Position numbers and translations under genes: made by a program. Shown in pieces: positions 10,070-27,579 of a DNA stretch of 64,000 nucleotides. The DNA lies in assembly GCA_000023405.1 (NCBI GenBank), contig CP001643.1:124001-188000 (forward strand), given 5' to 3'. The DNA comes from Brachybacterium faecium DSM 4810 (GTDB taxonomy: Bacteria > Actinomycetota > Actinomycetes > Actinomycetales > Dermabacteraceae). The notes beneath the pieces were generated by a model. It was not told where the DNA came from. It ran no database searches and saw only the letters and a program-made list of their open reading frames with translations. Position 1 is the first letter of the stretch. Each line of letters begins with the position of its first letter.

Positions 10070-11074
10070 TCAGCCCGCGGCCACGTCGTAGTTGACGAAC
10101 CGGCGCGAGAGCCAATAGATGAGGCCGGCCAGGAGCATCCCGAACAGGAACAGCAGCACCGCGAGCGCCGAGGCGAAGCCCAGCTGCCCGTAGGAGAAGG
10201 CATTCCGGTAGAGGTACAGCATGTAGAACAGCGTCGCGTTGTCCGGACCGCCGTCGGTCATGATGTAGGCCTCGGTGAACACCATCATCGCGCCGGAGAC
10301 GCCCGTGATCAGGTTGAACAGGATCGTCGGGGTCAGCAGCGGCAGTGTGATCGCGGTGAACTGCTTCATCCTCCCGGCGCCGTCGATGCGCGCCGCCTCG
10401 TAGAGGGCGGAGGGGATGTTCCGCAGCCCCGCGAGGTAGATCAGAGCAGCGTTCCCGGCGGCCAGCTGGGCCATCAGGATGATGACGATCTTCGCGTAGC
10501 GGGGCTCGCCCAGCAGATTCGTGTCCGGCATCCCGAACAGTCCCAAGATCTGGTTGACGATGCCGAACTGCGGGTTGACGAACACGATGAAGATGAAGGA
10601 CATCGCGAACATCGGGATCAGCGATGGCAGGTACAGCAGGGTGCGGTACACCGCGACCTCGCGAACGTTGCGGTTCATCGCCAGCGCCAGCAGCAGCGCC
10701 ACCACCAGGCCCAGCGGCACGGCGACCAGCATGTAGTAGACCGTGTTGCCCACCGAGGTGCGCACCAGCGGGTCCAGGAATGCGGCGACGTAGTTCTGCA
10801 GCCCGATGAAGGTGGGGGTCTGCATGCCCGAGTACTGGGTGAGGCTGATGGCGAAGGAGTACACCAGCGGGTAGATCACGAAGGCGGCCACGCCGATGAT
10901 CCACGGCGAGATGAACAGCAGCCCCACCCTGAGGTTCCGCTTGTCGCGCCGACTCAGCCGTCGACGGCCGCGACCTGCGCCGGCGGTCCCGGGCGGGGCC
11001 TGCGCGATCCCGCGCGGCGGGGTGCCCGGGGGATGGGCGGGCCCGGCTGCGACGCTCGAATCGCTCGCGCTCAT
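10070..11074 (-). CDS. Sugar ABC transporter permease, MalF type
   Basis: 334 residues; first gene of the minus-strand operon, with AAAGGAG before the ATG. The N-terminal 50 residues are Pro/Ala/Arg-rich and precede six hydrophobic segments starting at NLRVGLLFISPWIIGV. The EAA loop is YEAARIDGAGRMKQFTAITL. Pairs with the MalG-type protein downstream. A candidate promoter and inverted repeat lie 112-140 bases upstream, between this gene and the divergent ROK regulator. Confidence 0.92.
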   Translation of the reverse strand: MSASDSSVAAGPAHPPGTPPRGIAQAPPGTAGAGRGRRRLSRRDKRNLRVGLLFISPWIIGVAAFVIYPLVYSFAISLTQYSGMQTPTFIGLQNYVAAFLDPLVRTSVGNTVYYMLVAVPLGLVVALLLALAMNRNVREVAVYRTLLYLPSLIPMFAMSFIFIVFVNPQFGIVNQILGLFGMPDTNLLGEPRYAKIVIILMAQLAAGNAALIYLAGLRNIPSALYEAARIDGAGRMKQFTAITLPLLTPTILFNLITGVSGAMMVFTEAYIMTDGGPDNATLFYMLYLYRNAFSYGQLGFASALAVLLFLFGMLLAGLIYWLSRRFVNYDVAAG

Positions 11075-11185
11075 GATGCTCCTTTCGACGGCACCGCGTC
11101 ATCGTCGGTGCGTGAACGGGCGGGACGGAGTGCTCCCACCACGGCGGATGCGGGGACCGGACGATCCCCCCGCCATTGGTGAGGT

Positions 11186-11214
11186 AGGTTACTCACACCG
11201 ATAGACATAATCAA
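11186..11214 (-). promoter_or_regulatory. Candidate promoter of the sugar ABC operon with inverted repeat over the -10
   Basis: Read on the minus strand, TTGATT (11209-11214) is followed after 17 bases by TAACCT (11186-11191), a good -35/-10 pair for the housekeeping sigma factor. The half-sites GTGAG (11179-11183) and CTCAC (11192-11196) flank the -10 box. The divergent gene at 11327 encodes a ROK regulator, which would be the natural ligand-responsive repressor. Seen: the boxes and the repeat. Inferred: regulation by that protein. Confidence 0.5.
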
Positions 11215-11326
11215 CGTCTCGGCACCGGGGAGTTTCCTCGCATGGTGCCGATGAGCCCCGCGTATCGTGCGCCGCAGCGGGGAGCGCCCTCGGATCCACC
11301 GGGGCGGCCGAGCAGGGAGGAGCGGC

Positions 11327-12601
11327 ATGCGCGGGACATCGATGGCCGATATCGGCTCCTACAACGAGAAGCTCGTGCTGCAGCTGATCCGCGCCGCCCC
11401 GGACGGGGTCTCCCAGTCGCAGGTGGTGCGCACCAGCGGCCTCTCGCGGCAGACGGTCTCGCTGATCGCCCGTCGCCTGCTGCTGGAGGGCCTCATCGAG
11501 ACCGCGGGGCAGCGGATCTCCGGGCCCGGCAAGCCCACCACCCTCCTGCGGACCGTGGCCGACTCCCGCTGGACCATCGGCCTGCACGTGGATCCCGCGC
11601 ACCTCACCGTGGTGATCTGCGACCTGCAGGGCAACCCGGTGGATTCCACCACCCTCGGCGCTCCCACCGAGGACGCCGGCGCGGACATCGCCCGCATCGC
11701 CGCGGAGATCGAGCGCCTCTGCGCCCACCACGGCGCCGTCATGATCCACGACCTCCCGGCCCCGGCTGCGCAGTCAGGCGACGGAGGATCCGTCCCGCAG
11801 TCGCCGCCGCGGCGAGTGGTTCTCGGGATCGGCGTCGCCGCCCCGGCCCCGATGGATGTGGCCGCCGGCGAGCTCACCACGCCGCCATGGCTGCCCGGCT
11901 GGCACGGCGCCGCCGTGGTCGCCGATCTCGAGGCGGCCACCGGCCTGCCCGTCCTCCTCGACAAGGACACCAACGCGGCGCTGACCGGCGAGATCTGGGC
12001 CGGCCACCTGCCCGCCGAGGAGACCGTGCTGTACCTCTACCTCAGCCACGGCGTGGGCTCCGCGGTCAGCGCCGACGGCCGCGTGCACCGCGGCAGCAGC
12101 ACCCAGGCCGGCGAGATCGGGCACCTGCCCACCGGCCTTGCCGACGAGATCTGCCGCTGTGGGCGGCACGGCTGCCTGAACCTGTTCACCGACGCCCGCC
12201 GCATGATCGAACGCGCCACCGCTGCGGGGGCGAAGGTCGGCCCGCACGACATCTCCGCCGCCGTGGACGCGATCGTCGCCGCCGCCGAACGCGGCGAGAG
12301 CGCGGCGCTGCAGGCCGTCGAGCAGCACCTGGACGCCGTGGTCGCAGCGCTGGAGATCCTCTCCAGCATCCACGACCCCCAGCGGATCATCGTCGGCGGA
12401 CCCATGCTGACCGCACTGCTGCCCCTGGCGACGCCCCGGATCCGCGAGGGCACCGCGGCCAGGCTCGTGGAGACCGGGGGCACGCTGCACTTCTCCGAAC
12501 TCGGCAACGCCGCCGGCGCGATCGGCGCCGCCTGCCTTTTCCTCGAGGAGGAGCTGTCCCCCGGCCGCAGGCTCGGGGCCCGAGCGAGGAGCGGCTCATG
12601 A
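11327..12601 (+). CDS. ROK family transcriptional regulator
   Basis: 424 residues. The start is the ATG behind AGGGAGGAG (11314-11322). N-terminal winged helix: KLVLQLIRAAPDGVSQSQVV then the recognition helix SGLSRQTVSLIARRL. The C-terminal sugar-kinase-like domain has DKDTNAALTGEIWAG at the phosphate-binding position and GEIGHLPTG followed by CRCGRHGCLNLF, the ROK zinc motif, although the usual Glu after CxCGxxGCL is Asn. It is divergent from the sugar ABC operon and overlaps the YesL gene by four bases, so it probably senses the imported sugar and represses both directions. Confidence 0.9.
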   Translation: MRGTSMADIGSYNEKLVLQLIRAAPDGVSQSQVVRTSGLSRQTVSLIARRLLLEGLIETAGQRISGPGKPTTLLRTVADSRWTIGLHVDPAHLTVVICDLQGNPVDSTTLGAPTEDAGADIARIAAEIERLCAHHGAVMIHDLPAPAAQSGDGGSVPQSPPRRVVLGIGVAAPAPMDVAAGELTTPPWLPGWHGAAVVADLEAATGLPVLLDKDTNAALTGEIWAGHLPAEETVLYLYLSHGVGSAVSADGRVHRGSSTQAGEIGHLPTGLADEICRCGRHGCLNLFTDARRMIERATAAGAKVGPHDISAAVDAIVAAAERGESAALQAVEQHLDAVVAALEILSSIHDPQRIIVGGPMLTALLPLATPRIREGTAARLVETGGTLHFSELGNAAGAIGAACLFLEEELSPGRRLGARARSGS

Positions 12602-16171: not shown

Positions 16172-17479
16172 TCACGCCTCGTGCGACGCGACCCCGCACT
16201 GGGCGGTGAGATCTCCCTGCACGGCGAGACCACTCTGTGCGGCGAAACTCTGTGCGGCGAAACCTCCCTGCGCGGCGAGACCGCCCTGGGCGGTGCGGCC
16301 GCCCTGCGACGTGCTCCCGCCGCGGGAGGCGAGCCCCGGGCTCACGAAGGTCTGCAGCGCCAGCACCGCGGCGCCGACGGCGCAGGGGTGGGGCTGCACC
16401 TGGGAGACCGTGACCGTGGCCTCCGTGCCCAGGTTGCGGGCCCGGGCGGTGTAGTGCTCCGCCATCACCTCGCCCACGAGCACCGGCGCCGCCTGCAGGG
16501 CGGGCCCGGAGAGCACCACGGTGCGGATGCCGAGCGCGCTGGTCGCGGCCCACACCGCCTGGGCCACGGCCGCTGCCGCCGCGGTGAAGATCTCCCGGGC
16601 GCGCGGCTCCCCGTGGGCGGCGGCGAGGGCGAGGAGCACCACGTCGCTGCTCAGCGAGCTGGGGGTCAGCCGCAGCTCGAGCTCCTCGCCCAGCCCGTCC
16701 CTCGCGGCGGCCCGGTCCACGAGCGCGCGCGCCGAGGCGTACTGGTGCAGGCAGCCGTGGCCCCCGCACTCGCACGGCGGCCCGCTCGGGTCGATCCCCA
16801 CGTGGTCGAGGGTCGCGGAGCTGCCCGGGCCGGGCTGCAGCGGCCGCCCGTCCTGCAGGATCGACAGCCCGATCCCCGCCTCCATGTGCACGGTCGCGCA
16901 CAGTCCGCTCTCGGGCTGCTCGCCGCTCCAGAAGCTGCCCAGCGCCGCGCAGGCCGGCTCGTTCGCGCTGATCGAGGGGATGTTCAGATCGCGCGTGATC
17001 TCGCGCAGCAGCGCCGGGCCGTCCGCGGTGAGGTCGTGGGGGAGGGCGACGCCGATGCCGGTCGCCGCATGCGCACCGGCCTCGGGCCGCAGCGTCGACA
17101 GCGCCCGGTGGAGGGCCTCGCGCACGGCCCCGCGATCGCTCGGCGCCTCGAGCGGCACCGCGATCCGGGCCTGCAGCGCGCCGGTGAGGTCCACCGCGGC
17201 CAGCGACAGCCGATCGGCGTCGATGGTGCAGCCGATGGCCCAGCGGGCCTGGTCGTTCAGTCGCAGCAGCGAGGCGCGCTTGCCCCCGTTGGAGCGCGCG
17301 AATCCGCTCTCCACCAGCAGTCCCTCGGCGAGGAGGCGTTTGACGGCGTAGGTGACGGTGGCCGGGGTGACCCCGAGCTCGCGGGAGATCTCGACCCGGC
17401 TGGTCTGCGAGCGGCGCCGGACGATCTCGAGGATCGCGGCGTCCGTCGCGGAGGCTCGGCGTTCGCCGGTGGTGCTCAT
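16172..17479 (-). CDS. ROK family transcriptional regulator with repetitive C-terminal tail
   Basis: 435 residues; the ATG behind AAGGAGGT was chosen over longer upstream frames. The winged helix (ILEIVRRRSQTSRVEISREL then GVTPATVTYAVKRLL) precedes a sugar-kinase-like domain with CECGGHGCLHQYAS, the ROK zinc motif. After residue about 375 the protein ends in a run of hexapeptides of the type GLAAQG, absent from ordinary ROK proteins. It is divergent from the Opp-type transporter/beta-mannosidase operon at 17743, whose promoter carries an inverted repeat, so it is the likely repressor of that operon. Confidence 0.88.
   Translation of the reverse strand: MSTTGERRASATDAAILEIVRRRSQTSRVEISRELGVTPATVTYAVKRLLAEGLLVESGFARSNGGKRASLLRLNDQARWAIGCTIDADRLSLAAVDLTGALQARIAVPLEAPSDRGAVREALHRALSTLRPEAGAHAATGIGVALPHDLTADGPALLREITRDLNIPSISANEPACAALGSFWSGEQPESGLCATVHMEAGIGLSILQDGRPLQPGPGSSATLDHVGIDPSGPPCECGGHGCLHQYASARALVDRAAARDGLGEELELRLTPSSLSSDVVLLALAAAHGEPRAREIFTAAAAAVAQAVWAATSALGIRTVVLSGPALQAAPVLVGEVMAEHYTARARNLGTEATVTVSQVQPHPCAVGAAVLALQTFVSPGLASRGGSTSQGGRTAQGGLAAQGGFAAQSFAAQSGLAVQGDLTAQCGVASHEA
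16213..16317 (-). repeat. Imperfect 18-bp tandem repeat encoding Ala-Gln-Gly hexapeptides
   Basis: About six units lie head to tail: 16213-16230, 16231-16248, 16249-16263 (15 bp), 16264-16281, 16282-16299 and 16300-16317. The shared core on the plus strand is CTGNGCGGCGA. All changes keep the reading frame of the ROK gene, giving units such as GRTAQG, GLAAQG, GFAAQ and SFAAQS. Length is probably variable between strains. Confidence 0.8.
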
Positions 17480-17620
17480 CGCGACCTCCTTCTCGTGGCC
17501 GTGGCCCGCCCGCCCGCAGCGGCTGCGCGGGAGCGGGATGCGCCAGTGTCGCACTCCGTCACGGCCGCGCGAGCGGCGGTCCGTGACCATTTCGTAGCGT
17601 GCCGTGCCCAGGGTTTCCCC

Positions 17621-17650
17621 TTGACGGGCGGTGATCTGGGTCTCCACAAT
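17621..17650 (+). promoter_or_regulatory. Candidate promoter of the Opp-type transporter operon
   Basis: TTGACG (17621-17626), 18 bases, then CACAAT (17645-17650) makes a strong -35/-10 pair for the plus-strand operon starting at 17743. Transcription would begin about 17657, right at the inverted repeat that follows, leaving a leader of about 85 bases with AAGGAG before the ATG. Confidence 0.6.
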
Positions 17651-17657
17651 ACGCTTA

Positions 17658-17676
17658 CTTCATTAACCAAATGAAG
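17658..17676. promoter_or_regulatory. Inverted repeat, candidate ROK operator
   Basis: CTTCATT (17658-17664) and AATGAAG (17670-17676) are perfect inverted copies separated by AACCA. The AT-rich element stands out in this GC-rich region and covers the predicted transcription start of the 17743 operon. The adjacent divergent ROK gene (16172-17479) is the obvious candidate to bind it. Confidence 0.55.
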
Positions 17677-17742
17677 AAAGCGCGGCAGGGGATCTGCCAG
17701 CGATCGACTCACACGCAGAGACGCGTGGCAAGGAGAGCAACG

Positions 17743-19437
17743 ATGCACCTCAGTCGTCGGGATCTGTACAAGCTCAGCGCCCTCGGCGCGGCGCCCCTCG
17801 CCCTCGCGGCGTGCGGCACCAGCTCCAACCTCGACAGCGGGGGAGGCAGCGGATCGGAGGAGCGGCCGATCCTCGTCACCAACGCGACCGACGGGAGCCT
17901 GACCAAGAACTTCAACCCGCACTCGCCCTCCGTGGTGCACATGATCCAGGGCCTGATCTACGAGACGCTGTTCTACTTCAACCCGCTCGAGGCGATCGAC
18001 CAGGAGCCCGTGCCGCTGCTGGGCGAGAGCTTCTCCTGGAACGAGGACGGCACCGTCCTGACGGTCACCCTCCGCTCCGGCGTGGTCTGGACCGACGACA
18101 CCCCCTTCACCGCGAAGGACGTCGCCTTCACCTTCAACAAGATCCACGAGACCGAGGCGCTGAACGCCGGCGGCACCGCACCCTCCGCGGAGGAGATCGA
18201 CGAGTCGACCGTCGAGATCCACTACGCCGAGCCGTCCTTCACCGAGGGCCCCAACGCCCTCTCCCGCACCTGGATCGTCCCCGAGCACCTCTTCGCCGAC
18301 GTGGACGACCTGGCCACCTACGCGAACGAGGAACCGGTGGGCACCGGCCCGTTCGCGCTCGAGGACTTCACCCCCGAGTCGTACCTGATGCTGACCAACG
18401 AGAAGTACTGGGACGAGGGCAAGCCCGCCATCGGCGGCATCCGCGCGATCACCACCTCCGGCAACCAGTCCGCCACCGACATGTGGCTGACCGGCGAGAT
18501 CGACTACATGTCCGCCGCGATCCCGAACCTCGAGGAGCACGTGGAGAACAACCCGGACCTCGCGTACACCAACACCGGCATCTCCCAGATGGCGCTCATG
18601 GCCGCCTGCAACCCGGAGCTGGGCTGCGAGGGGCCGCAGACCGACGTCGCCGTGCGCAAGGCCCTCTACTACGGCATGGACCGCGAGCAGCTGTCCAAGC
18701 TGGCCTTCTTCGACCTCGGCGCGGACATCTCTCCCTCCTTCGCGCTGCCCGAGCGGGACGCGGACTTCATCGACCCCTCGCTCGAGAACGCGCCCTGGAA
18801 CGCCCAGCCCGACGAGGCGACGACGATCCTCGAGGACGCCGGGTACAGCCTCGGCGACGACGGCATCTACGCCAAGGACGACGTGCGGCTCTCGATGACG
18901 ATCTCCTGCCCCACCGGCTGGTCCGACTACGTCACCGCGCTGGACACCCTCGCCGCGCAGTACAAGGAGATCGGCATCGAGCTGATCCCGCAGCAGGTCT
19001 CCGTCAACGAGTGGAACGACGCCAAGGCGAAGGGCACCTATCAGCTGGTCATCGACGCCGTCGGCCAGGGGCCCGCGCCGGATCCGTACTACCCGTACCG
19101 CAACCAGTTCTCGACCGACAACACGGTGCCCGTGGGCGAGAACGGAAACCCGTACAACAACGTCACCCGCTTCTCGGACCCGGAGGTCGATGCGGCGCTG
19201 GAGGTGGCCGCGGCCACCGACGACACCGAGGTCAAGAAGGAGCAGTACTTCATCATCCAGCAGCGCCTGTTCGAGGTGATGCCCGCGATCCCGGTGCTCA
19301 TCGGCTCGAGCCTGACGGAGTACAACACCTCGAAGGTCACCGGCTGGCCCACCGAGGACGACCTCTACGCCTACCCGATGTCCTGGGCCGCGCCGGACAG
19401 CGCCATGGTCCTCAAGGCCGTCGTCCCCGCCTCCTGA
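17743..19437 (+). CDS. Opp/Dpp-type (family 5) solute-binding lipoprotein
   Basis: 564 residues. Twin-arginine signal MHLSRRDLYKLSALG and lipobox ending at Cys24 (ALAAC). The body is family 5: VHMIQGLIYETLFYFNPLE, then WTDDTPFTAKDVAFTFNKI, the classic TxxDVxxxF region, and GTGPFALEDFTPESYLML. Most relatives bind peptides, but several bind oligosaccharides. The operon continues with two permeases, two ATPases and a beta-mannosidase, so beta-linked manno-oligosaccharides are the best guess. Start ATG has AAGGAG upstream. Confidence 0.92.
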   Translation: MHLSRRDLYKLSALGAAPLALAACGTSSNLDSGGGSGSEERPILVTNATDGSLTKNFNPHSPSVVHMIQGLIYETLFYFNPLEAIDQEPVPLLGESFSWNEDGTVLTVTLRSGVVWTDDTPFTAKDVAFTFNKIHETEALNAGGTAPSAEEIDESTVEIHYAEPSFTEGPNALSRTWIVPEHLFADVDDLATYANEEPVGTGPFALEDFTPESYLMLTNEKYWDEGKPAIGGIRAITTSGNQSATDMWLTGEIDYMSAAIPNLEEHVENNPDLAYTNTGISQMALMAACNPELGCEGPQTDVAVRKALYYGMDREQLSKLAFFDLGADISPSFALPERDADFIDPSLENAPWNAQPDEATTILEDAGYSLGDDGIYAKDDVRLSMTISCPTGWSDYVTALDTLAAQYKEIGIELIPQQVSVNEWNDAKAKGTYQLVIDAVGQGPAPDPYYPYRNQFSTDNTVPVGENGNPYNNVTRFSDPEVDAALEVAAATDDTEVKKEQYFIIQQRLFEVMPAIPVLIGSSLTEYNTSKVTGWPTEDDLYAYPMSWAAPDSAMVLKAVVPAS

Positions 19438-19547
19438 CCCGTCGGCCCGTCCGCTGACCCGTCGGCCCCGCGCCGTTCCCGCCCCCGCGCTCGCCGCCGG
19501 GGCGGGCGGCGCGGCCCGACCCCGTCCGACGAAAGGATCTCGAGCCC

Positions 19548-20534
19548 GTGCATCTCCTGCGCAAGATCGGGTTCTACCTGGTGGCCCTGTGGGCCGCGGT
19601 GACCCTCAACTTCTTCATCCCCCGCGCCCTGCCCGGCAGCCCGGTGGATGCCGTCCTGGCCAAGCTCGCGCTGCGCGGCCCGGTGGACCCCCACACCCGC
19701 GAGGCCATCGAGGTGATGCTCGGTGCGGACAACGACCGCTCGCTGATCCAGGAGTACTTCGCCTACCTGGGCGGTCTGTTCACCGGTGACCTCGGCGTCT
19801 CCGTCACCTACTTCCCCACCCCCGTCTCCGCGGTCGTGGGCCAGTCGCTGCCCTGGACGCTGATCCTCGTGGGCCTGGCCACCACGTTCACCTTCCTGCT
19901 GGGGATGGTGCTGGGCACCGTCGCCGGCTGGCGGCGCGGCACCTGGCTGGACTCCCTCATCCCCGCCACCACGATCCTCCAGGCCGTGCCCTACTTCTGG
20001 CTCGCGCTGCTGTTCATCTACGTGCTGTCGGTGAACCTGGGGGTGTTCCCGATCTCCGGCGGCTACGACTACACCCTGGTGCGCCCGGCGTTCGACTACC
20101 CCTTCCTCTCCAACGCCGTCTACTACGGCTTCCTGCCGGCGCTGACGATCGTGCTGTCCTCCCTGGGCGGCTGGCTGCTGGGGATGCGCAACATGATGGT
20201 CTCGACCCTCAGCGAGGACTACATCCTCACCGCCGAGGCGAAGGGCCTCTCCCCGCGCCGCGTGATGATCATGTACGCGGCCCGCAACGCGATGCTGCCC
20301 AGCGTCTCCGGCTTCGCGATCTCGCTGGGTTTTGTGGTCTCCGGCTCGATCGTCGTCGAGACCGTCTTCTCCTACCCGGGGGTCGGCTTCACCATGCTGC
20401 AGGCCGTGCAGAACAACGACTACCCGCTCATGCAGGGCATGTTCCTGATCATCACCGTCTCCGTGCTCGCGGCGAACCTCGTGGTGGACCTGCTGTACGG
20501 CGTCATCGATCCCCGCACCCGAGCGCGAGGCTGA
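19548..20534 (+). CDS. Opp/Dpp-type ABC permease (DppB-like)
   Basis: 328 residues from a GTG start with GAAAGGA upstream. N-terminal helix LRKIGFYLVALWAAVTLNFFIPRALPGSP is the DppB/OppB signature region, followed by five more helices; the EAA loop (ILTAEAKGLSPRRVMIMYAA) contacts an ATPase. C-terminus FLIITVSVLAANLVVDLLYGVIDPRTR is typical. Lies 110 bases after the binding protein and nine before the DppC-like gene. Confidence 0.92.
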   Translation: MHLLRKIGFYLVALWAAVTLNFFIPRALPGSPVDAVLAKLALRGPVDPHTREAIEVMLGADNDRSLIQEYFAYLGGLFTGDLGVSVTYFPTPVSAVVGQSLPWTLILVGLATTFTFLLGMVLGTVAGWRRGTWLDSLIPATTILQAVPYFWLALLFIYVLSVNLGVFPISGGYDYTLVRPAFDYPFLSNAVYYGFLPALTIVLSSLGGWLLGMRNMMVSTLSEDYILTAEAKGLSPRRVMIMYAARNAMLPSVSGFAISLGFVVSGSIVVETVFSYPGVGFTMLQAVQNNDYPLMQGMFLIITVSVLAANLVVDLLYGVIDPRTRARG

Positions 20535-20543
20535 GGAGCTCCC

Positions 20544-21475
20544 ATGTCACGCACTGCTGAGAACCGCGGCCTCCGCGCCGCTCTGCGCCGCCACGCCACC
20601 CCCTCCCTGGTGATCGGGGCGGGCCTGGTCGTCGCGATCACCCTGTTCGGGGTGTTCGTCCCCTTCGTCGTCGCCGATCCGCTGACCATCTCCAGCTCCG
20701 GCATGCAGCCGCCCTCGGCCGAGCACTGGCTGGGCACCACCCAGACCGGGCAGGACGTCCTGTCCCAGCTCGCCTGGGCCACCCGCGGCTCGCTCATGGT
20801 GGGCGTGATCGTCGCCGTCCTGGCCCTGTTCCTCTCCGCCTTCTTCGGGATCCTCGGCGGATACCTGGGCGGCTGGGTCGACGAGGCGTTCTCCCTGTTC
20901 ACCAACGTCGTGCTGATCCTGCCCGGCCTGCCGCTGATGATCGTCATCGGCTCCTACGTGCAGCAGCGCGGCCTGCTGCTGATCGCCGTGATCCTCGCGA
21001 TCACCTCCTGGGCCGCCGCGGCCCGGGTGCTGCGCTCGCAGACCCTCTCGATCCGCACCCGCGACTACGTGCAGGCCGCGAAGCTCGCCGGCGAGAAGCC
21101 GCACCGGATCATCGCCGTCGAGATCCTGCCGAACCTGCTGCCGGTGATGTCCAGCGGCTTCGTGTTCGCCCTGATCACCGCGATCCTCGGCGAGGCGGGG
21201 CTGAGCTTCATCGGCCTCGGCGTGGTGGGCACCCAGACCTGGGGCTCGATGCTGTTCTACGCCCAGAACGGCCAGGCGCTCACCCTGGGCGGCTGGTGGT
21301 GGTTCGTGCCGCCGGGCGCGATGATCGCGCTGCTGGGCTGCGGCCTGTCCCTGATCAACTTCTCGATCGACGGGATCATCAACCCCCGCCTGCGCACCGC
21401 CCCGAAGGCGGCCCGCACCGTGCGCCGGGCCGAGAACGCCGACGAGTCCACCACCGCGACCGAGGAGGCCCTCGC

Positions 21476-21479
<4 letters not shown>
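20544..21479 (+). CDS. Opp/Dpp-type ABC permease (DppC-like)
   Basis: 311 residues; N-terminal cytoplasmic segment, helix LVIGAGLVVAITLFGVFVPF, and the GTTQTGQDVLSQLAWATRGS motif (usually GTDxxGRDxxSR) of DppC/OppC proteins. EAA loop: YVQAAKLAGEKPHRIIAVEI. Forms the second membrane half of the importer. The stop overlaps the ATG of the next gene by four bases (ATGA at 21476). Confidence 0.92.
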
Positions 21480-22542
<1,063 letters not shown>

Positions 22543-22546
<4 letters not shown>

Positions 22547-23403
22547 CCACCCTCACCGTCACCGACCTGCACAAGTCCTACCGGCTGCGCAGCGGGGCGC
22601 GCTTCTCCACCCTCGACGCGGTCAAGGGCGTGGACCTCGAGCTCAGCCCCGGCCGCACCGTCGCGCTGGTGGGGCAGTCCGGCTCCGGCAAGTCCACGAT
22701 CGCGAAGATCCTCGCCCAGCTCGAGCGGCCCACCTCGGGCACGATCACGCTGGACGGCGCACCGATCGGCACCCGCGGCCGGGCGCTGGCCCGCTACCGC
22801 GACCAGGTGCAGATGGTGTTCCAGGATCCCTTCGCCTCGCTGAACCCCTTCCACAGCATCGGCCACCACATCGAACGGCCCCTGCTGCTGCACGGCCGCG
22901 CCACCCGCGCGAACGTGCGGGAGAAGGTGTGCGAGCTGCTCGAACGGGTCAACCTCACCCCCGCCGAGACCTTCATCGACCGCAGCCCGCACGAGCTCTC
23001 CGGCGGGCAGCGCCAGCGCGTCGCGATCGCGCGGGCCCTCGCCCCCGGGCCCACCGTGCTGATCGCCGACGAGCCGGTGTCGATGCTGGACGTCTCCGTC
23101 CGGCTCGGCGTGCTGAACCTGCTCGCGCGCCTGCAGCGCGAGGAGAACCTGGCGATGCTCTACATCACCCACGACCTCGCCACCGCCCGGCATTTCTCCG
23201 ATGAGATCCTGGTGATGTACCGCGGGGAGGTCGTCGAGCGCGGCCCGGCCGACGAGGTCATCCTCAATCCGCAGGCAGAGTTCACCAAGCAGCTGCTGAT
23301 CGCCGCCCCCGAGCCCGGGAACAACCCGCGCTTCCTCGCCGAGGCCCGTCGCCGCGGCGTCCCCATGCCCGACCACCTGGCACTCGCCGAGGAGAACACG
23401 TGA
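22543..23403 (+). CDS. Opp/Dpp-type ABC ATPase (DppF-like)
   Basis: 286 residues; ATG overlaps the previous stop, and its own stop overlaps the GTG of the beta-mannosidase gene. Walker A GQSGSGKSTI, signature LSGGQRQRV, Walker B VLIADEP, switch LYITHDLA. Second nucleotide-binding subunit of the importer. Unlike the family 1 sugar transporters in this window, this one carries its own pair of ATPases. Confidence 0.92.
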
Positions 23404-25931
23404 CCGACCGCAGCACCCCCGCCACCACCCGTCGCCCCCTGCACGAGGGCTGGCGGCTCAGCATCACCGCGGGCCCTGCCCCGATCGCCGTCCAGGACGT
23501 GCCCGCCACGGTGCCCGGCACGCTGATCACCGACCTGCACGCCGCCGGGCTGATCGAGGATCCGTACCTGGACCGCCACGAGCACGACCTGCAGTGGACC
23601 GGCGAGTGCGATGTCACCTACGCGACCCGCTTCGACTGGACCGCCGCCGGCGCCGACCGGGTGGACCTGGTCGCCGCCTCGCTGGACACCGCCGCGACCG
23701 TGGTGCTGAACGGCCGCCGGATCGCCGAGGTGCAGAACCAGCACCGGTCCTGGCGCTTCGACGTCACCGACGCGCTGGTCGAGGGGGAGAACGAGCTCGA
23801 GATCCGCTTCGCCTCGCCGCTGCGCACGGCGCGCGAGAACGAGAAGGTGCTCGGGGCGATGCCGCACACCGGCAACGACCTGCCCTACAACGCGATCCGC
23901 AAGATGGCCTGCAACTTCGGCTGGGACTGGGGGCCGGTGCTGGTCACCAGCGGCATCGCCGGCCCGATCGGCCTCGAGCAGTGGTCCACGGCGCGGCTGG
24001 CCGAGGTGCGCCCGCAGGTGACCGTCGAGCCCGGCGCACGCGGCCTGGTGGACCTCACCGCGCTCATCGAGCGCGCCGACCTGCTGGACGATTCCGCGGT
24101 GACCGTCGCGGCCCGGCTGCTGGACCCCTCCGGGCAGCAGATCGACGAGAGCACCCGCACCACCGCGGAGGACGAGACCGCGCTGCAGCTCACCGCCGCG
24201 GATCCCCAGCTGTGGTGGCCGCGCGGCTACGGCGACCAGCCCCTGTACACGGTGGTCCTCGAGCTGCGCGACGCGCACGGGGCGCTGCTGGAGACGCGCG
24301 AGCACCGCGTGGGCCTGCGCACCGCCGGCGTGCAGGAGGAGCCCGACGAGATCGGCACCTCCTTCACCGTCGTCGTCAACGACCGCCCGATCCTCGCCAA
24401 GGGCGCGAACTGGATCCCCGATGACTGCTTCCCCTCGCGCCTGACCGTCGAGGACTACCGCGCGAGCATCGCCGACGCGGTCGACGCCGGGATGAACACC
24501 CTGCGGATCTGGGGCGGAGGGCTGTACGAGTCGGAGCTGCTGTACGCGCTGTGCGACGAGCTGGGCATCCTGGTGTGGCAGGACTTCACCACCGCGTGCG
24601 CCGCCTACTCCGAGCTGGATCCGCTGCGCAGCGAGTTCGAGGCGGAGGCGCGCGAGCACATCGTCCGCCTGGCCTGGCATCCCTCGCTGGTCCACTGGAA
24701 CGGCAGCAACGAGAACGTCGAGGGCTACCACCACTGGGGATGGCAGGAGCACATCCCGGAGGGCGCCGGCTGGGGGCTGGGCTACTACACCGAGCTGTTC
24801 CCCTCCCTGCTCGCCGAGCTCGACCCCACCCGCAGCTACACCCCCACCAGCCCCTACTCGCGCCCGCTGCCCGAGGATCCGCGCAACCCCGATCACGGCA
24901 CCGTGCACAACTGGGTGGCCTGGGCCTCCGAGGAGGACAACGACTACACCCGCTACCGCGACACGATCCCGCGGTTCTCCGCCGAGTTCGGCTACCAGGG
25001 CCCCGCCAACTACGCGACGATCGCCCGGGCCGTCACGGAGCGGCCGCTGGACGAGGACTCCGAGACGATGCTGTCCCATCAGAAGGCCGCGGGCGGCCAG
25101 GACAAGCTGCGCCGCGGCATGGCCCCGCACCTGCCGCCCGTGGAGGGCTTCGACGACTTCCACTTCGCGACCCAGCTCAACCAGGCCCGCGCCCTGATCT
25201 GCGGGATCGGCCACTACCGCTCCCACTGGCCGGTGTGCGCCGGCACCATCGTGTGGCAGCTCAACGACTGCTGGCCGGTCACCTCCTGGGCCGCGGTGGA
25301 CGGCGACCGCCGCCGCAAGCTCCTCTGGTACGCGCTGCGCGACGTCTACGCGCCGGTGCTGCTGACCATCCAGCCCCGCGAGGACGGCCCGGCGATCAGC
25401 CTCGGCAACGACACCGACGAGCCCCTCGCCGGGACGCTGCAGCTGCGCCGCCAGCACCACGACGGGACCGTCCGCGCCCGCGCGGAGCTGCCGGTGCAGG
25501 TCGCGCCCCGCAGCGCGGCCACCCTGCCGGTGCCCGCCGAGCTCGCCGCGCCGGCGGACCCCGCCGCCGAGGTGCTCGTCGTCGAGCTCGCCGGCACCGC
25601 CGTGCGCACCGTCCACCCCTTCGCCGAGGATCGCGACTCCGCGCTCGCCGGCGGCGCCCTCACCGCCCGCGCGCAGAAGGTCGCGGACGGGGTGGAGATC
25701 ACCGTCAGCGCCACCTCGACCGTGCGCGACCTGTGCGTGCTGGCCGACAAGGTCGACCCCGCAGCCAGCGTGAACCGGCAGCTGGTGACGCTGCTGGCCG
25801 GGGAGAGCACCCGCCTCCACGTGCGCACCGGCGCCGCGGTCGCGACCGAGGCCTTCCTCGGCCCGGACGTGCTGCTCAGCGCCAACGACCTCGTGGCCCG
25901 GGCCCGCGACCGCGCGGCGCAGGCCGCCTGA
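23400..25931 (+). CDS. Beta-mannosidase, glycoside hydrolase family 2
   Basis: 843 residues, normal for family 2 beta-mannosidases. GTG start in a GTGA overlap with the ATPase gene. Early landmarks: PATVPGTLITDLHAAGLIEDPY and NFGWDWGPVLVTSGI, both typical of beta-mannosidases rather than beta-galactosidases. The catalytic barrel has WNGSNENVEGY with the acid/base Glu438 and FSAEFGYQG with the nucleophile Glu529. No signal peptide, so it should remove mannose from imported beta-1,4-linked manno-oligosaccharides in the cytoplasm. The direct coupling to an Opp-type transporter supports that. Confidence 0.94.
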   Translation: MTDRSTPATTRRPLHEGWRLSITAGPAPIAVQDVPATVPGTLITDLHAAGLIEDPYLDRHEHDLQWTGECDVTYATRFDWTAAGADRVDLVAASLDTAATVVLNGRRIAEVQNQHRSWRFDVTDALVEGENELEIRFASPLRTARENEKVLGAMPHTGNDLPYNAIRKMACNFGWDWGPVLVTSGIAGPIGLEQWSTARLAEVRPQVTVEPGARGLVDLTALIERADLLDDSAVTVAARLLDPSGQQIDESTRTTAEDETALQLTAADPQLWWPRGYGDQPLYTVVLELRDAHGALLETREHRVGLRTAGVQEEPDEIGTSFTVVVNDRPILAKGANWIPDDCFPSRLTVEDYRASIADAVDAGMNTLRIWGGGLYESELLYALCDELGILVWQDFTTACAAYSELDPLRSEFEAEAREHIVRLAWHPSLVHWNGSNENVEGYHHWGWQEHIPEGAGWGLGYYTELFPSLLAELDPTRSYTPTSPYSRPLPEDPRNPDHGTVHNWVAWASEEDNDYTRYRDTIPRFSAEFGYQGPANYATIARAVTERPLDEDSETMLSHQKAAGGQDKLRRGMAPHLPPVEGFDDFHFATQLNQARALICGIGHYRSHWPVCAGTIVWQLNDCWPVTSWAAVDGDRRRKLLWYALRDVYAPVLLTIQPREDGPAISLGNDTDEPLAGTLQLRRQHHDGTVRARAELPVQVAPRSAATLPVPAELAAPADPAAEVLVVELAGTAVRTVHPFAEDRDSALAGGALTARAQKVADGVEITVSATSTVRDLCVLADKVDPAASVNRQLVTLLAGESTRLHVRTGAAVATEAFLGPDVLLSANDLVARARDRAAQAA

Positions 25932-25991
25932 GCACCGGGCAGTCCGAGCACGGGGCAGGCTGAGCATCCCGCCCCCGGGAGAGGAGCACGC

Positions 25992-26831
25992 ATGGCGACG
26001 ATCGGGATCACCATCCCCGAGACGGTGTGGTCCGCACGCTCCGAGCGGTTCTACACCCAGGTGCTGCACGGCCTGGAGGACACCGCCATCTCCCGGGGGC
26101 ACACCGTGCTCAGCCAGGTCACCGGCAGCCGTGCCGAGGAGCTCGAGACGATGCGGCGCTGGGCGGAGCACGGCAGCGTCGACGTGGTGATCCTCAAGGA
26201 CCTGCTCGAGGAGGACGACCTGCCCGGGCAGGTGCGTGCTCTCGGCCTGCCCTTCGTGGTGATCGCCGACGAGCGGCAGCACGAGGTCTCCGCCGTCACC
26301 GTCGACAACCTGGGCACGATGCGCCGCCTGCTCGAGGCGCTGTACTCGCGCGGGCATCGCGCGATCGGCCATGTGGGAGGGCCCGCGCATCTGCTGCACA
26401 GCCGCTGGCGCTGCGAGGCGCACCGGCAGTTCGCCGAGGAGCGGGACCTGCCGGTGCTGTGCGCCGAGGGTGACTACACCACCGACAGCGGCGCCACGGC
26501 CACCCAGGCCCTGCTGGACGGCCCGCAGCGCCCCTCCGTGATCGTCTATGACAACGACGCGATGGCCATCGCCGGGGCCGGCCGGGTCCTCACCACCGGT
26601 CTGCGGGTGCCACAGGACCTCTCGATCGTGGCCTGGGACGATTCCGCAGCCTGCCAGACCCACACCCCGCCGCTCGCGGTGCTCGAACATCGCCCCCACC
26701 AGCTGGGCATCGATCTCGCCCGCACGGCGCTGGCGCTGCTGGAGGAGCCCGGCACCCCGGTGCGGCTCGCCCACGAGGTGCCGCGGCTGCTGCCGCGCGG
26801 CACCCTGACGGACCGCCCGGCGCCCGCCTGA
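25992..26831 (+). CDS. LacI/periplasmic-binding-like sensor protein lacking a DNA-binding domain
   Basis: 279 residues beginning directly at TIGITIPETVWSARSERFY, the first strand of the ligand-binding core of LacI/GalR regulators. Conserved core features follow: RGHRAIGHVGGPAHLLHSRWR, VIVYDNDAMAIAGAGRVLTT and LSIVAWDDSAACQ. The helix-turn-helix normally found in the first 60 residues is absent, and the 60-base gap to the beta-mannosidase stop cannot hold it in any frame. There is no signal peptide, so it is not an ordinary periplasmic binding protein. GAGAGGAG precedes the ATG. Possibly a cytoplasmic sugar-binding or co-regulator protein; function unknown. Confidence 0.85.
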   Translation: MATIGITIPETVWSARSERFYTQVLHGLEDTAISRGHTVLSQVTGSRAEELETMRRWAEHGSVDVVILKDLLEEDDLPGQVRALGLPFVVIADERQHEVSAVTVDNLGTMRRLLEALYSRGHRAIGHVGGPAHLLHSRWRCEAHRQFAEERDLPVLCAEGDYTTDSGATATQALLDGPQRPSVIVYDNDAMAIAGAGRVLTTGLRVPQDLSIVAWDDSAACQTHTPPLAVLEHRPHQLGIDLARTALALLEEPGTPVRLAHEVPRLLPRGTLTDRPAPA

Positions 26832-26901
26832 CCGCGCGGCCGCCACGTTCCGATTCGGTGAACCGCTCGCCCCGACGGTGTCCAGCGGGAGACCATGGAG
26901 C

Positions 26902-27579
26902 ATGTCGTTCGATCTGGACCCCGCGGAGCTGGTCTCCAGCGCCCTGACCGCCGTGCTGCTCGCGGTGCCGCTCGCCTTCCCCCTCGCCGCTGCGATCATC
27001 ACCGGGCCGCGCCGCGCCTGGAGCCGGGCCGGTCTGGCCATGGGCATCGGCCTGCTGCTCGGGGTGCTCCTCGCCGTGGCCGAGGCCGTGGCCGGTCCCT
27101 TCGGCGCGCTCGGCGGCGTCGGCGGGGTGGTGCTGGTGCTGGGTCTGCTGGGCGCGATCGCCGCCGCGGTGCTGGTGATCGTGCTGGAGGACGGCACCGC
27201 CTTCTCCGCCGCGGTCGGGATCGCTGCGTGCGCGCTGATCGGCCTGGGCGAGCCGGGGCAGATGGGGGCGGGCCTGTCCTTCGTGACCTCCTCGGTGCTG
27301 GTGGTGCTCTCCGCCGTGGTGATCGAGGCGGTCGCGCTGGTGGCGATCGTCGGCTTCCTGGTCGCCGCGGCCGGCCGCGTGCGTGCGCTGCAGGTCGGGG
27401 TGGCCGCCGCGGGCGCCGTCGGCGCGCTGCTGCTGGTGATCGCGCCGCTGGTGCCGATGCCGTTCGGCGGGCTGCTCATCAGCGTGCTGGTCGCCCTCGC
27501 GATCGGCAGCATCGTGGCCGGAGTGCTCGAGGCGCTGCGGGCGCGGCGCGAGCCGTCGGCCGTCCCCGAGGACGCCTGA
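26902..27579 (+). CDS. Hypothetical integral membrane protein
   Basis: 225 residues, nearly all hydrophobic, with about seven predicted membrane segments and few charged loops. Starts MSFDLDPAELVSSALTAVL. Family not recognised. It is on the same strand as the beta-mannosidase operon, 70 bases after the sensor protein, and 177 bases before the AspT/YidE-like transporter; membership of either unit is unclear. An in-frame ATG at 26878 would add eight residues. Confidence 0.6.
   Translation: MSFDLDPAELVSSALTAVLLAVPLAFPLAAAIITGPRRAWSRAGLAMGIGLLLGVLLAVAEAVAGPFGALGGVGGVVLVLGLLGAIAAAVLVIVLEDGTAFSAAVGIAACALIGLGEPGQMGAGLSFVTSSVLVVLSAVVIEAVALVAIVGFLVAAAGRVRALQVGVAAAGAVGALLLVIAPLVPMPFGGLLISVLVALAIGSIVAGVLEALRARREPSAVPEDA

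Follow-up and report, generated by a model that had tools for sequence, protein, structure and literature searches.

A LacI-type sensor core without a DNA-binding domain is inherited together with a ROK regulator: a possible two-protein sugar switch in Actinomycetes

The last gene of a beta-mannosidase operon in Brachybacterium faecium DSM 4810 encodes a LacI-type sensor core that has no helix-turn-helix (HTH), and this core shares its inheritance with the ROK-family regulator encoded divergently at the other end of the operon. The window analyzed here is a stretch of 64,000 nt (GenBank CP001643.1, positions 124,001 to 188,000), to which all coordinates refer. Judging from sequence comparisons, we see roughly an even chance that the ROK protein binds the DNA and that the LacI core, working in trans, senses the sugar on its behalf. 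More tentatively, we propose that the two form an obligate two-protein switch, which would derive from a LacI regulator that ceded DNA binding to a ROK protein, and which would serve the use of mannan-type glycans in several orders of Actinomycetes. That the core acts on ROK is something we infer from the way the two genes are inherited together and from the lost sugar site of ROK.

The ROK gene lies on the minus strand, and the genes for the solute-binding protein (SBP), two permeases, two ATPases, the beta-mannosidase and the core follow in that order on the plus strand, with the core last (Table 1). The ROK protein matches both PF13412 and PF00480 above their cut-offs, and its PDB matches are ROK regulators; its C-terminal tail is repetitive, with abundant Ala, Gln and Gly (16172-16330, minus strand). 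Beyond the core, positions 26878-27579 (plus strand) encode a hydrophobic protein of 233 residues with no Pfam match, relatives of which lie 3' of the core in three of the genomes compared (G014, G026 and G024).

Table 1. Features of the operon and its flanks, in window coordinates.
Feature	Position	Strand	Basis
Divergent ROK-family regulator, winged HTH, degenerate sugar site	16172..17479	-	PF00480, PF13412; listed ORF from 17647, start 17479 inferred
Promoter-like TTGACG - 18 - CACAAT	17621..17650	+	Sole one found in 17400-27000
Palindromic operator (predicted) TACTTCATTAACCAAATGAAGAAAG	17656..17680	+	Genus alignment and genome pattern search
Extracellular solute-binding protein (SBP), family 5	17743..19437	+	PF00496; listed ORF from 17671, start 17743 inferred from conserved MHLxRRxLYK start
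ABC transporter permease	19548..20534	+	PF00528
ABC transporter permease	20544..21479	+	PF00528
ABC transporter ATPase, oligopeptide-type C-terminus	21476..22546	+	PF00005, weak PF08352; listed ORF from 21296, start 21476 inferred
ABC transporter ATPase (second)	22543..23403	+	PF00005
GH2 beta-mannosidase, 843 aa	23400..25931	+	Pfam GH2 domains; named for its best PDB matches, which bear that name (5n6u, 6bye, 2je8)
Gap, beta-mannosidase stop to core start, 60 bases	25932..25991	+	Read directly
HTH-less LacI-type sensor core (279 aa)	25992..26831	+	ORF list, Pfam, NCBIfam, AlphaFold2, Foldseek, HTH profile

The core starts with ATG (sequence start MATIGITIPE), exactly 60 bases after the end of the beta-mannosidase ORF. 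None of the in-frame codons of this gap is a start codon, and a ribosome-binding-like GGGAGAGGAG lies within it, immediately 5' of the ATG. Peripla_BP_3 is the only Pfam match of the protein (residues 115-271; 83.9 bits vs a cut-off of 26.5), the same search of the protein finds no LacI HTH (PF00356), and the NCBIfam profiles of full-length LacI regulators match it only from approximately profile residue 60 onward. In the AlphaFold2 model (mean pLDDT 95), the first strand spans residues 3-9, which leaves no space for either an HTH or a signal peptide, and by this model and its sequence start the protein lacks the export signal of a periplasmic sugar-binding protein. Its top matches among solved structures in Foldseek are LacI-family sensor cores (4o5a, TM 0.89/0.91), and no catalytic family matches it in Pfam, NCBIfam or Foldseek. 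A Padloc scan gave no match for the core and only weak CARF-type HTH matches for ROK. The first-pass annotation, made from the DNA letters, had described a LacI-like protein without a DNA-binding domain that begins at the first strand of the sensor core, is preceded by a 60-base gap holding no HTH, and carries no export signal; all of these points agree with the searches and the model.

The 3.6-Mb genome holds 32 Peripla_BP_3 matches and 29 matches to the LacI HTH (PF00356), and none of the 29 lies within 11 kb of the core. Three other Peripla_BP_3 proteins lack a PF00356 match, but by eye these have a divergent LacI HTH, a DeoR-like HTH and an exported lipoprotein start, respectively, so that the window core is the only cytoplasmic stand-alone core of the genome.

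Orthologues with at least 43% identity are present in 16 of 47 genomes of the family (own included). All 16 genus orthologues have an identical start position with no HTH in front of it, which rules out a local truncation or a sequencing error; orthologues with an intact HTH, which the first-pass annotation had named as the finding that would overturn it, were thus sought and are absent from this set. The beta-mannosidase is directly 5' of the core in 15 of the 16 genus loci. At the G020 locus (L046, 8820-9014) the beta-mannosidase is internally deleted, with its first and last codons left, and ROK, the transporter and an intact core remain. One genus copy (G001) is frameshifted; the frameshifted locus (L053) is counted among the 16 and left out of the trees. 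The core is present in all 14 genomes that have a close relative of the SBP.

Stand-alone cores also occur in other beta-mannosidase operons, a check that the same annotation had suggested. Curtobacterium ammoniigenes, of another family, has the same operon with an HTH-less core, and, with this one counted, 52 further HTH-less loci were found beyond the genus in other genera and orders (68 in total). From the larger order 400 genomes were drawn and the core profile was run over 396; all 65 non-genus matches down to E 1.7e-66 were examined, with their regions fetched (60, then 5), and comprise 41 HTH-less and 24 HTH-bearing genes. A profile search of the class (394 genomes) led to 26 chosen regions with 10 HTH-less and 17 HTH-bearing genes (the G637 region holds one of each), although the ratio of the two kinds is meaningless here because the regions were chosen partly for frames too short for an HTH. 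HTH status was first judged by eye, and then tested with an HTH profile built from half of the HTH-bearing loci, which matches 22 of 22 held-out HTH-bearing loci. In 67 HTH-less loci this profile finds only two LacI genes of neighbors on the opposite strand and three matches of 10-11 bits, at least 370 bases off. No hidden or split HTH was found nearby, either in these 67 loci or within 11 kb of the core in its own genome. Plasmid records contain three relatives, all distant (35-36%), and the two inspected are HTH-bearing with no ROK match.

In a tree of 85 cores, 54 of the 55 HTH-less rows fall into one group (support 97/97), and the 55th (L111) is a long branch. The HTH label changes twice on this tree, and three times on a second one, with 108 rows, built by a faster method. 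On the trees the HTH-less cores are essentially one group amid the HTH-bearing LacI regulators of beta-mannosidase genes, so the loss of the HTH is old and took place about once. The HTH-less core is under selection, with dN/dS values of 0.07-0.34 in nine close pairs.

A partner-profile ROK with a winged HTH is found in the same cluster for 64 of the 68 HTH-less cores (genus, 13/16; Curtobacterium, 1/1; order, 40/41; beyond, 10/10), and for the four cores without one (G031, G026, G032 and G059) the contigs end first. Among the HTH-bearing relatives a partner ROK is seen in 2 of 46 (G194 and G637), both in clusters that also have an HTH-less core; the regions around HTH-bearing genes extended approximately 9-10 kb, and in two of the 64 pairs the partner ROK is 11.7 or 13.5 kb from the core. 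Three HTH-bearing loci without a ROK match (L057, L273 and L274) are outside the 46, and HTH-less ROK proteins in some HTH-bearing loci (L142, L144, L261 and L262) were excluded from the partner count. In L165 the genes for the SBP, permeases, ATPases, beta-mannosidase and LacI protein have the order of the window, but the LacI protein is HTH-bearing, and no ROK gene was found 5' of the SBP. Since the HTH was apparently lost about once, the contrast between 64/68 and 2/46 is largely one inherited state rather than many independent events, and a test of independence between HTH and ROK, with no more than 2-3 independent pairs to draw on, could not become significant (sign test, p = 0.5).

The informative observation is the persistence of the ROK/core pair while the remaining genes changed. 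Among the first 39 loci of the order, ROK is present in 37 within the fetched region and in all 39 within 14 kb, vs 29 for a beta-mannosidase in the region and 17 for an SBP of the window type, so the core is linked more tightly to ROK than to either. In several clades the core alone adjoins ROK. In the ROK tree, which is shaped like the core tree, the partner ROKs of the region fall into a single clade; core and partner-ROK distances, uncorrected for species relatedness, have a correlation of r = 0.91 in 31 pairs, a value that none of 999 permutations reached. ROK and the LacI core share their inheritance. No frame in which the two are fused was found among 246 core and 134 ROK frames. A partner-type ROK (366 bits) in G233 (L250, 8343-9572) has no LacI core within the fetched 19.5 kb. 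Clusters in G637 (L253, 8367-10479), where the two genes are 1.3 kb apart from start to start, and on contig 4 of G194 contain an HTH-less core together with a full-length relative that has the HTH.

In ROK proteins of this kind, as in the ROK kinases and Mlc, the sugar is held by an ExGH motif together with the final residue of CxCGxxGCxE. The window ROK reads TLDH and CECGGHGCLH at these places, with NE in place of ND, and so lacks an intact sugar motif. Of 61 partner ROKs, 25 have lost the ExGH acid. They make up three groups that lie apart on the ROK tree, plus one singleton: 11 of the 13 genus ROKs, 10 from a group of other families (in which the zinc motif is missing too), 3 from another family, and the singleton. 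The other 36 keep the acid, mostly with the whole motif, and these ROKs may sense sugar themselves. By comparison, all 15 control ROK regulators, from six genomes, retain the acid (E or D) and the H, and where the partner clade has a second ROK paralogue, whether close to the transporter or at another place, the motif is intact in every case (9 of 9; rows L191 and L250 are one gene, counted once). Eight loci (L126, L131, L139, L145, L154, L155, L156 and L160) have two partner-clade paralogues each; of these, the one that adjoins the core has a degenerate sugar motif, and the one beside the SBP operon is intact.

The pocket of the core is conserved. Residues H136, R140, D161, D189 and D217 are invariant in 108 of 108 sequences, of which 65 are HTH-less. 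R62 is found in 35 of 43 HTH-bearing sequences and is mostly L or M in the HTH-less ones, of which H236 is typical. By this comparison the window core keeps the pocket of its HTH-bearing relatives in mannosidase operons.

The predicted operator is directly 3' of the promoter-like site and before the transporter, beta-mannosidase and core genes; shuffled sequences contain 0.2 such promoter-like sites, vs the one found. Palindromes of the type TACTTCATTAAnnnnATGAAGnAAG are present in 13 of 13 ROK/SBP regions of the genus. In the 3.6-Mb genome the exact palindrome pattern has a single match; with two mismatches it has one further place, and a reversed control pattern has two. Similar inverted repeats lie 5' of ROK, the SBP or the beta-mannosidase in many HTH-less loci of other genera. 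Several HTH-less loci have no operator match, and a few matches are inside coding sequence (L108, L110, L123 and L132). A repeat at z of at least 3 is found upstream of the beta-mannosidase in 21 of 39 HTH-less loci vs 2 of 28 HTH-bearing loci. Per 100 kb of sequence, 50 HTH-less loci contain 4.4 ROK-type inverted repeats vs 0.4 for 37 HTH-bearing loci, and LacI-type half sites (CTnAACCGG) show the opposite trend (4.5 vs 15.3 per 100 kb), but these figures are more descriptive than a test, because the palindrome and half-site scores were set after the sites had been seen. At the set score, strict LacI-type palindromes were found 5' of the beta-mannosidase in 0 of 28 HTH-bearing and 0 of 39 HTH-less loci. 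The role of ROK as the DNA binder at the predicted operator is well supported by these patterns.

In the two-protein switch that we propose, ROK would repress the operon at the palindrome. The effector is probably a beta-mannoside (mannose, mannobiose or a larger manno-oligosaccharide), by analogy with ManR of Thermotoga and considering the beta-mannosidase and the transporter; it would be imported via the ABC transporter and bound by the LacI core, and the sugar-loaded core would then act on ROK, most simply by removing it from the operator, or else by tightening its hold there. As the core is encoded in the same operon, induction would be self-reinforcing. In lineages in which the ROK sugar site is intact, two sugars would perhaps be read together. 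Presentation of a sugar to ROK was among the options of the first-pass annotation, and it is favored here because the two genes are inherited together, because of the predicted operator, and because ROK has lost its sugar site.

Other roles for the core have to be weighed against this one. In the window operon the core gene comes after those for the transporter and the enzyme, and the ExGH acid is still present in 36 of the 61 partner ROKs, as might be seen if the core bound some protein other than ROK (e.g., the ABC ATPases or the beta-mannosidase) and tuned uptake or breakdown by the sugar level, with ROK regulating alone. We think this unlikely, since among the 39 loci of the order the beta-mannosidase is absent in 10 and the SBP in 22, with ROK present in all 39, since the core is alone beside ROK in several clades, and since the beta-mannosidase deletion of G020 leaves the core. 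A core without any regulatory role, serving in the cytoplasm as a buffer or carrier for the sugar or as a weak enzyme, would likewise need no DNA-binding domain and would keep the sugar pocket. Nevertheless, such a role is improbable: the core descends from regulators, its gene is linked to a regulator and not to one enzyme, and the degenerate sugar sites of ROK would be left without explanation. For an enzyme in particular, another of the earlier options, we find no support, as the core matches no catalytic family and has the fold and the pocket of a LacI sensor core.

LacI regulators are dimers, and the core might form mixed dimers with a full-length LacI regulator, blocking it as a dominant-negative subunit. 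This option of the first-pass annotation draws some support from the clusters of G637 and G194, which each hold a close full-length relative together with the HTH-less gene, and from the distant LacI genes that adjoin the core in G025 and G019. In the window genome, on the other hand, the nearest LacI proteins are only 31% identical to the core, or 37% over part of their length, and LacI-type sites are scarcer around HTH-less loci; mixed dimers are thus weakly placed and we doubt that they account for the core. Finally, the exchange of ROK and LacI-type operators between the two kinds of loci, as well as the frameshift in G001, might indicate that ROK took the place of an older LacI regulator and that the core is what remains of it, in decay. 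This reading is disfavored and very improbable, given the dN/dS values of the nine pairs, the invariant pocket of the 65 HTH-less sequences, and the intact start at one position across the genus.

Fusions of a GntR winged HTH with a LacI core go by the name AraR, and LacI itself is the textbook one-protein switch. LacI factors are defined by an HTH plus an effector domain, and a GntR-type DNA-binding domain fused to a LacI core is known as well (both in PMC4052901). The window core is like the LacI/GalR transcription factors in fold, pocket residues and ancestry near beta-mannosidase genes, but unlike these it has neither an HTH nor a hinge, so that operator binding in the LacI style is not possible. 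In the fusions, as far as that source describes them, a LacI core likewise serves a DNA-binding domain of another family; these are one chain, whereas the window system consists of two genes, and its DNA binder would be a whole ROK regulator. ManR of Thermotoga maritima, also a ROK protein, regulates mannan and mannoside operons that include an ABC transporter, and is to that extent like the window ROK, but it responds to mannose, whereas the sugar site of the window ROK is degenerate; the available part of the source (PMC3750489) mentions no LacI core beside ManR. CerN, according to PMC11655674, is an HTH-less LuxR homologue and an antagonist of CerM, i.e., likewise a homologue of regulators that lacks an HTH and acts on another regulator; CerN and CerM belong to quorum sensing and to a single family, other than those considered here, whereas the window pair comes from two families. 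The individual parts are thus known. We found no paper on a stand-alone LacI core combined with ROK in the literature searched, which covered few subscription journals.

If the proposed switch is correct, one-component regulators can become two-protein systems, with the sensor freed and paired with an unrelated repressor, and annotations that name HTH-less cores as LacI regulators need correcting. The same operon exists in two forms, one with an HTH-bearing LacI protein and no ROK, and the other with ROK and an HTH-less core, which makes the exchange of DNA-binding part and operator testable. At one of the loci with two ROK paralogues (L131), the gene at 10373-12538 (minus strand) beside the ROK/core pair encodes, by eye, a GH36 alpha-galactosidase-like protein, which would fit galactomannan use.
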